A DNA stretch of 64,000 bases from Burkholderiales bacterium (GTDB lineage: Bacteria; Pseudomonadota; Gammaproteobacteria; Burkholderiales; Casimicrobiaceae), in the NCBI GenBank assembly GCA_016790165.1, contig JAEUPL010000011.1, forward strand, positions 124,001 to 188,000, in the 5' to 3' direction. The position numbers and the translations under genes are program-made. The notes under the pieces were generated by a model, which was not told where the DNA came from, did not search any database, and saw only the letters and a list, made by a program, of their open reading frames with translations. Position 1 is the first letter of the stretch. Each line of letters starts with the position of its first letter. This document shows positions 35,736 to 37,922 of this stretch, piece by piece.

Positions 35736-37922
35736 TTACTGCGCGACGAATTCGACGCGACGGTTCTTCTGCTTGCCTTCGTCGGTGCCGTTGTCGGCCA
35801 CCGGCTTGGTGTCGCCGTAGCCTTTGGCCGTCAGCACCTCTTTCGGCACGCCCTTGCCCGCGAGATAGGCGACAACGGCTTCGGCGCGCGCTTGTGACAG
35901 CTTCTGGTTGGCCTCAGGCTGACCGACGTTGTCGGTGTGGCCGCCAATCTCGCCCTTGGTCTTGCCGTCCTTGATCAGTTCGGCGAGCTCGTTGAGTTCC
36001 TTGGCATCGCCGCCGCGAATCTTGGCGCTACCGGTATCGAATTCGACATCAAGCTTGAAGGTCTTGGCGCCGGCTTTGAACGCGTCAGCCGCGGCCATGG
36101 CCTTGCCCTTGATGTCGTTGCTCAACGTTACACCGTCACCCAGCAAACCTTTGAGCGCATCCATGGCGCCGGGAATCAACGCGTCGCCCAGCTCGCCGCT
36201 GGCCTTCACGTTAGCGCCGTCAAACGCGAGGCCGAGGCCCTTGCCTTTGAGCCAGCCAAACACGTCGGGCCATTTGCCGCCAAACGCAAATGCCGGTAAC
36301 GCGGCGTCGAGCGTCAGCTTGTCGGTCACGTTGGCGTCGCCGAAGGCTGCTTTCGCCGCGCCGAGCAGCACGTCTTTGGCGCCCTGGTCTTTCACCGCAC
36401 CGTCCAGCGTCAGCTTGTCGCCAGCCACTGCGGCTGCCCACTTGCCGAAGGACGGCAGCACCGGCTTCGGCGCTTCAACCTTGGCGGCTTCGACCTTGGG
36501 TGGCTCGGCCGCTTTTGGCGCTTCCTTCGGCTGATTGCATTGCCTGAGCAGCACTGCCGCAAGGATTGCGAAGACCAGCAGCGCGAGCCATTTCATCCAG
36601 CCCGCTGCGGGCGCAGACGGCTCCAGTGCCGTCGCGGTGGTGGCAGCGGCGGGCGCGGCGGCGCTCACCGGCGCTGCGGCGACCGGTTTCGATTTGGCCG
36701 TGGTGGCGGCAGCCCCGGCCAGCGCGGCGGCGCCAGCAACACCGGCTGCTGCAGGCGCGTAGGCCTTGGCGGCGGCGACCACTTTCTCCGCAGCCTCGCC
36801 CATGTTGTTGGCCGTGATGATCGGCAGGCCGCTCTTGGCGAGGATTTCCTTGCCGAGGTCTTCGTTGGTGCCCTTCATGCGCACCACCAGCGGTACTTTC
36901 AGGCCCACGGCCTTCGACGCAGCAACCACGCCTTCGGCGATGGTGTCGCACTTCATGATGCCGCCGAAGATGTTGACCAGAATCGCTTTCAGATTCGGGT
37001 TCTTCAGCATGATCTTGAACGCTTCGGTCACCTTCTCGGTGGTGGCACCGCCGCCCACGTCGAGGAAGTTGGCCGGCTCGCCGCCATAGAGTTTGATGGT
37101 GTCCATCGTGCTCATCGCGAGGCCGGCGCCGTTCACCAGACAGCCGATGTCGCCGTCGAGCGAGATGTAGGCGAGGTCAAACTTGCTGGCTTCGATTTCG
37201 GCCGGGTCTTCCTCGTCGAGGTCACGCATCGCCACGATGTCGGGGTGACGGAACAGGGCGTTGCTGTCGAAGTTGAACTTCGCGTCAAGCGCGATCACCT
37301 TGCCGTCGCCCGTCAGAATCAACGGGTTGATTTCGGCGAGTGAGGCATCCTTGTCGATAAACGCAGCGTACAGGCCCTGAAGTGCCTTGCGCGCCTCGCC
37401 AAACGAAGCGGCCGGGATGCCAATGGCGCCGGCCACGTCATCACATTGCGCGTCCGTCAGCCCGGCAGCCGGGTCGATGAACACCTTTTTGATGGCATCG
37501 GGGTTCTTGTGCGCGACTTCCTCAATGTCCATGCCGCCTTCGCTGGACGCGAGCAGCGCGACGCGTTGCGTTGCGCGATCGACCACCATGGAGACGTACA
37601 TCTCTTTTTTGATGTCGGCACCGTCTTCGATGAACAGGCGCCGCACCTTCTGGCCTTCCGGTCCGGTCTGGTGCGTGATGAGTTGCATGCCGAGAATGGC
37701 TGAGGCCTTCTCGCGCACCTCTTCAATGGACTTTGCGACCTTGACGCCGCCGCCCTTGCCGCGACCACCGGCGTGAATCTGTGCTTTCACCACCCACACC
37801 GGGCCGCCCAGCTCCTGCGCCGCTTTCACAGCCTCGTCGACGCTGAACGCCGGAATGCCACGTGGCACGGGCACGCCGAACTCACGCAGAATCTGTTTTC
37901 CCTGGTACTCGTGAATCTTCAC
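35736..37922 (-). CDS. sucC: Succinyl-CoA synthetase beta subunit fused to TM helix and OmpA domain
   Basis: 728 aa; ordinary SucC is about 388. Residues 1-388 form a complete beta subunit: [20 protein letters not shown], the ATP-grasp segment [45 protein letters not shown] and [10 protein letters not shown]. Residues 389-441 are an Ala/Pro/Thr linker, 443-459 one transmembrane helix ([18 protein letters not shown]), 461-490 a Pro/Lys/Glu linker, about 491-615 a region with BON-like strands ([19 protein letters not shown]), and 622-728 an OmpA-type domain with [28 protein letters not shown] and [12 protein letters not shown]...KNRRVEF. There is no stop or frame change at the junction. Predicted: enzyme in cytoplasm, OmpA domain in periplasm bound to peptidoglycan. 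An internal start at M443 could also make a separate OmpA protein. Confidence 0.93.

Follow-up and report, generated by a model that had tools for sequence, protein, structure and literature searches.

The sucC gene described here, encoding the beta subunit of succinyl-CoA synthetase (SCS), continues without a stop beyond a complete SucC into a predicted transmembrane helix, a BON-like region and an OmpA-like domain. It was found in the window, the stretch of 64,000 nucleotides from a Burkholderiales bacterium that was analysed as a whole. As judged from the aligned sequences of the genus, the constant element is the predicted transmembrane anchor, and the OmpA tail is optional. The reading we prefer, with a probability of roughly 0.6, is that the gene yields one polypeptide in which SucC would be tethered to the inner membrane by its C-terminal helix and, in some species, would bind the cell wall as well.

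The gene is located on the minus strand (37922..35736) and starts with GTG; its single frame of 728 codons, followed by a stop, encodes a product of 728 aa. The sequence-only reading had given the coordinates as 35736..37922, with one stop-free frame and sucD 14 bases further on, and all of this holds when the minus strand is read; the frame is continuous here and conserved in 13 genomes. The features of the locus, in the direction of transcription, are the following.

37928..37935, minus strand: Shine-Dalgarno-like AGAAGGGG, 5' of the sucC start (upstream sequence, by reading)
36759..37922, minus strand: SucC domain, residues 1-388, ATP-grasp_2 and Ligase_CoA (Pfam, NCBIfam, genus alignment, E. 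coli match)
36630..36758, minus strand: linker 1, Ala-rich, residues 389-431, evolving fast and staying in frame (alignment and dN/dS)
36588..36626, minus strand: juxtamembrane motif L433-W445, L-x-PSAP-x-x-GW-x-x-W, overlapping the helix (columns invariant in the 13 genus copies)
36546..36602, minus strand: predicted transmembrane helix, residues ~441-459 (hydropathy; a single helix 440-462 in a weak full-length model)
36462..36545, minus strand: linker 2, Pro/Lys/Glu-rich, residues 460-487 (alignment and dN/dS)
36087..36461, minus strand: BON-like region, residues 488-612, two modelled beta-beta-alpha-beta repeats (profile matches and model)
35739..36086, minus strand: OmpA-like domain, residues 613-728, containing D664 and R679 (Pfam, alignment)
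34843..35721, minus strand: sucD, SCS alpha subunit, 292 aa, of the usual length (ORF, Pfam, NCBIfam)

A sucD start is present 3' of sucC in all 13 complete copies of the genus, at a distance of 14-27 nt except in three loci (L010, L011 and L019, of genomes G014, G011 and G007, respectively), where the gap measures 379-397 nt. This long gap contains an ORF that by eye resembles a GIY-YIG protein and is bordered by inverted palindromes including GGGAATCC; the insert looks like a small mobile cassette within the operon. Other genes seen on the minus strand of the window were a RelE-family toxin gene (PF06296) with an HTH antitoxin-like gene immediately 3' of sucD (34151-34757) and two adjacent genes for proteins with DUF5122 beta-propeller matches (28477-30297, 606 aa, and 31254-32924, 556 aa).

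The enzyme part of the fusion appears to be an ordinary SucC. Pfam places ATP-grasp_2 at residues 2-202 and Ligase_CoA at 262-382, the NCBIfam equivalog for ADP-forming SucC (NF001913) covers residues 1-386 of the 388 with 586.4 bits (cut-off 370), and E. coli SucC (1jkj) matches with E=2.1e-125. The residues K46, G53-R54-G55, E99, E107, N199, D213, N264 and G321, which we take to be those binding the nucleotide, Mg and the substrate, are invariant in all 13 rows of the genus alignment. The full-length model match and these residues agree with the earlier description of a complete SucC with intact motifs. A single SucC match at E<=1e-100 was found in the source genome and likewise in the one-contig genome G005, as expected for the main SCS locus that the earlier reading had proposed, and the fusion should therefore serve the TCA cycle. 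In the fragmented genome G014 an additional partial SucC match of 62 residues makes it uncertain whether the fusion is the sole copy.

We observed the extension throughout the genus. The homologue search covered 60 genomes, the source genome included, and 17 of them belong to the genus. A complete sucC is present in 13 of the 17; in G006 and G013 SucC ends at a contig edge, and for G003 and G008 no SucC part was among the matches listed. All 13 copies, one of them from a single-contig genome, extend past residue 388 (500-734 aa) and carry the anchor. The motif L-x-PSAP-x-x-GW-x-x-W is unchanged among them, with L433, P435-P438, G441, W442, W445 and A456 as the invariant columns near the helix in the 13-row alignment. 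The linkers drift in sequence, and in none of the 13 copies do they contain a stop or a frame shift. What follows the helix is variable: BON and OmpA in 5/13, OmpA without BON in 2/13 and, in the other 6/13, only 65-102 residues rich in Pro, Ala and Lys. Thus, the architecture proposed earlier (SucC, linkers, helix, BON-like region, OmpA domain) is present in the window, but for the genus it has to be amended, the anchor being the constant part; since the OmpA domain is absent in 6/13, wall binding would not be general in the genus. We also considered whether the OmpA domain had moved to a gene of its own in the anchor-only species (G004, G005, G009, G010, G012 and G016), and rejected this, since among the matches listed for these genomes there is no BON-OmpA copy elsewhere, every tail match listed starting at query residue 623 or later.

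As far as the surveys reach, the anchor appears to be specific for this protein and for this genus. With the anchor region (101 aa) as query, sucC was the sole match at E<=0.01 in the source genome, the next one (E=0.039) containing two internal stops; at this threshold the anchor is thus not seen on other proteins of that genome. In the same search over the genus, G012 alone gave two extra weak matches, one at E=0.001 and the other at 0.007, whose frames measure 621 and 752; the profile built from the 13 rows has one match in G012. Among 64 genomes of the family this profile found strong matches (E <1e-20) in 13, all of the genus and all used for the profile, and five weak ones (E 4e-4 to 0.01) in four other genomes, which do not represent this fusion because their frames, of 114-335 aa, are too short. 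A scan of genome contigs with [ET]PSAP[AI][AS]GW yielded 312 stretches; ten of these encode a relative, all ten being known genus copies, and derive from MAGs (Casimicrobiaceae bacterium SKYG17 and nine designated Betaproteobacteria or Burkholderiales).

Of 140 genomes sampled from the order, 134 have a SucC (three of these belong to the genus), as do 130 of 140 sampled from the phylum (one belongs to the genus, and four are shared with the order set), so that the survey outside the genus comprised 256 distinct SucC-bearing genomes. A C-terminal membrane helix occurred in none of the 38 non-genus SucC frames of at least 441 codons (18 of at least 480 and 20 of 441-478), the range that was surveyed; shorter frames allow ~50 extra residues at most, and at least one SucC, that of G303, is cut before its C-terminus. 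The 17 non-genus loci that were read (L022-L038) encode a plain SucC of 386-392 aa (389 aa in L037). A different SucC extension was seen in L070 (G136), a strongly basic, Lys/Ala/Pro-rich C-terminal tail of 59 aa with no helix. In the published literature on SucC fusions or membrane-bound SCS, in a search that mostly left subscription journals aside, we found no report of this fusion.

With respect to the tail, the OmpA domain (PF00691, residues 628-721) scores 74.8 bits against a gathering cut-off of 27.2, and D664 and R679, presumably the Asp/Arg pair of the OmpA peptidoglycan site, are invariant in five copies; the domain would be expected to bind peptidoglycan. The preceding region is called BON-like because the window copy stays under the Pfam cut-off (only BON_like, 14.3 bits vs 24.1, E=0.039); Pfam BON is reported for three of five genus copies, with a best E of 6.8e-8. 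ArfA/Rv0899 (2l26) aligns to tail residues 12-240 with E=1.4e-15, most of the score coming from OmpA, and is also the top Foldseek match of the tail model, with a poor superposition (TM 0.33). The structure models are weak (mean pLDDT 53.5 for the tail and 55.4 for the full-length protein) and were therefore used only in support of the BON-like repeats: the full-length model has two beta-beta-alpha-beta repeats there (block pLDDT 64-90), to which the N-terminal domain of OmpATb (2kgs) can be fitted with TMt 0.70 at 21% identity. Matches to the tail at E<=1e-16 exist in 71 of 200 genomes of the order. We read 17 of these loci, eight of which align over BON and OmpA (31-38% identity) and nine chiefly over OmpA; judged by eye, the N-termini of the eight proteins resemble signal peptides or short hydrophobic helices. 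Such stand-alone Burkholderiales BON-OmpA proteins are a possible source of the tail.

We then considered the history of the fusion with the help of a sucC core tree, built from the genus copies and eight outgroup rows, in which the genus branch has a support of 100/99. When the architectures of the genus copies are mapped on it, as the sequence-only reading had proposed, the anchor is constant and the OmpA part comes and goes. G009 and G016, which fall outside the other eleven copies, have only the anchor, and BON plus OmpA is present in both halves of the eleven; the three tail types require at least four changes. The simplest history would be an old anchor, one gain of BON-OmpA and repeated losses, with several independent gains as another conceivable course. 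For the ten pairs among the five BON-OmpA species, dN/dS was 0.03-0.07 for SucC, 0.05-0.16 for BON and 0.04-0.11 for OmpA. The helix, with a defined value in six of the ten pairs, lies at 0.05-0.14, and the linkers, with five and six defined pairs, span 0.02-0.62. In six more pairs, five of them with an anchor-only species, the helix gave 0.06-0.23; all these values are rough, since dS exceeds 1 in many pairs. The helix, BON and OmpA parts thus look to be under purifying selection. The low dN/dS of these parts and the frame kept in 13 genomes argue that the fusion is more than chance.

Alternatively, a protease could cut the precursor in linker 1, so that SucC would be released and the BON-OmpA part would remain in the membrane as a protein of its own. 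In favour of such a cleavage, linker 1 is rich in Ala, evolves fast and is probably unstructured, and free-standing BON-OmpA proteins occur in the order. Nevertheless, the anchor is kept in the 6/13 species that would release no OmpA domain, and no conserved site is evident in linker 1, which varies in both length and letters, so that we regard cleavage as improbable.

Topology is the weakest step in the preferred reading of a membrane-tethered SucC. The helix of the window copy has a mean hydropathy of 2.18 over 19 residues, and in all 13 species there is more Lys/Arg in the 15 residues after the helix than in the 15 before it (3 vs 0 in the window copy); assigning the Lys/Arg inside the W-x-K/R-W motif to the N-side brings the two flanks level in three species and reverses the order in none. 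Under the positive-inside rule such a charge distribution points to a tail in the cytoplasm, which would be the wrong compartment for binding the wall, and makes the topology uncertain. Both ends might then be cytoplasmic, the helix dipping into the membrane or packing on a partner and the OmpA-like domain doing something else. Against this, D664 and R679 are retained in the OmpA domain, which seems to be under purifying selection, its relatives start by eye with signal peptides or export helices, and TonB is a known case of a periplasmic linker rich in Lys and Pro. We consider this arrangement just as improbable as cleavage. The periplasmic position of the tail that was claimed earlier is likely given the OmpA domain, although the charge distribution around the helix argues the other way.

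A neutral accident, a tail that reached fixation in the genus ancestor and left an anchor with no metabolic purpose, would fit the drifting linkers and the part beyond the helix, which was lost or shortened several times. It fits poorly with a helix and motif kept in 13/13 and apparently selected, and one stop in linker 1, of which there is none, would have deleted the tail; on balance it is quite improbable. An internal start at M443, from which the sequence-only reading had suggested a separate TM-BON-OmpA product, found no support and is very improbable: M443 does lie at the start of the helix and is ATG in 12/13, but the codon is CTC in G016, no Shine-Dalgarno-like run was seen in the 33 bases 5' of it, which vary at synonymous sites, 35600-38100 holds no promoter-like site (sigma-70 consensus only) and 6/13 species would obtain merely a helix with a short tail. 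That the junction arose by misassembly or a sequencing error, for which one could point to the 41 contigs of the source genome and the MAG origin of the ten named relatives, has a negligible probability and was set aside, since the same junction occurs in 13 genomes, in frame and with no stop in the relatives, with aligned, selected residues on either side.

Under the preferred reading, that of a tethered SucC, the product would stay one uncleaved chain, the flexible Ala-rich linker and the single transmembrane helix tying the C-terminus of SucC to the inner membrane. The protein would be inserted with its enzyme part in the cytoplasm, where SucD would assemble onto it. E. coli SCS is an alpha2beta2 enzyme, and in such an assembly SCS would bear two anchors, one on each SucC. 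In the window species the chain would extend across to the periplasmic side, where an ArfA-like module of BON and OmpA would grip peptidoglycan. The tether would keep succinate formation at the membrane, beside succinate dehydrogenase (complex II; for a review see PMC10238741).

We also examined other TCA-cycle genes of the source genome. One contig (C32) clusters sucA, sucB, two Sdh_cyt genes and two citrate synthase genes; sucC is on a different contig. The two citrate synthase genes, ~8 kb apart, flank the Sdh_cyt pair, with sucA and sucB close by (~71-86 kb of C32). On full reading, no anchor-like tail was found in SucA and both citrate synthases (maxima of 19-residue hydropathy 1.20, 1.61 and 1.25), and SucB has no room for one, its open frame being only 424 codons. 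Among the TCA enzymes looked at, SucC alone carries the anchor. Since SucC makes the substrate of the membrane-bound succinate dehydrogenase, succinate delivery to that enzyme suggests itself as the metabolic purpose, a tentative idea that we rate as possible but rather doubtful. Somewhat closer to an even chance is the broader proposition that the whole genus would run its TCA cycle via an SCS permanently tethered beside complex II and clamped to the wall in some species. Whether TCA enzymes are organised at the membrane has long been debated, for the most part on the basis of interactions that are weak and transient (PMC6750097). This review mentions interactions among the B. subtilis enzymes that link fumarate with succinyl-CoA, as well as contacts between TCA enzymes and inner-membrane proteins in mitochondria, and cautions that contact does not prove channelling (PMC6750097).

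If the preferred reading holds, this uncultured genus of Betaproteobacteria would possess a built-in anchor on a central-energy enzyme that is normally free in the cytoplasm, and would offer a natural test of a membrane-tied cycle. A genetically fixed tether next to sister genera with plain SucC would allow a clean comparison, in which the effect of adding or removing the anchor could be measured on succinate flux, succinate dehydrogenase coupling and growth. The species series (anchor only, anchor with OmpA, anchor with BON and OmpA) would separate membrane tethering from wall tethering.

Compared with known systems, the window protein resembles the SucC family (NF001913; E. coli 1jkj) in its full-length domain (1-386) and adjoining sucD; the members known so far are soluble proteins with a C-terminus close to residue 388, whereas this protein extends to 728 aa. 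Other enzymes that include a SucC-like part, such as ATP-citrate lyase, also continue beyond the C-terminus of that part, so that an extension at this position is structurally possible; the domains added there are catalytic and soluble, unlike the anchor and OmpA tail. ArfA (Rv0899, OmpATb; 2l26, 2kgs), with the order helix-BON-OmpA, has like the tail a BON-type region followed by an OmpA domain and has no enzyme ahead of its helix; the tail described here is fused behind SucC and hence does not stand alone. The free-standing BON-OmpA proteins of Burkholderiales (~260-310 aa) similarly resemble the tail over BON and OmpA and lack SucC. Proteins of the MotB and TssL type, which were among the profile matches, have one helix and a periplasmic OmpA domain joined to a cytoplasmic or membrane part, but these serve flagellar motors or type VI secretion and not, as would be the case here, a metabolic enzyme.
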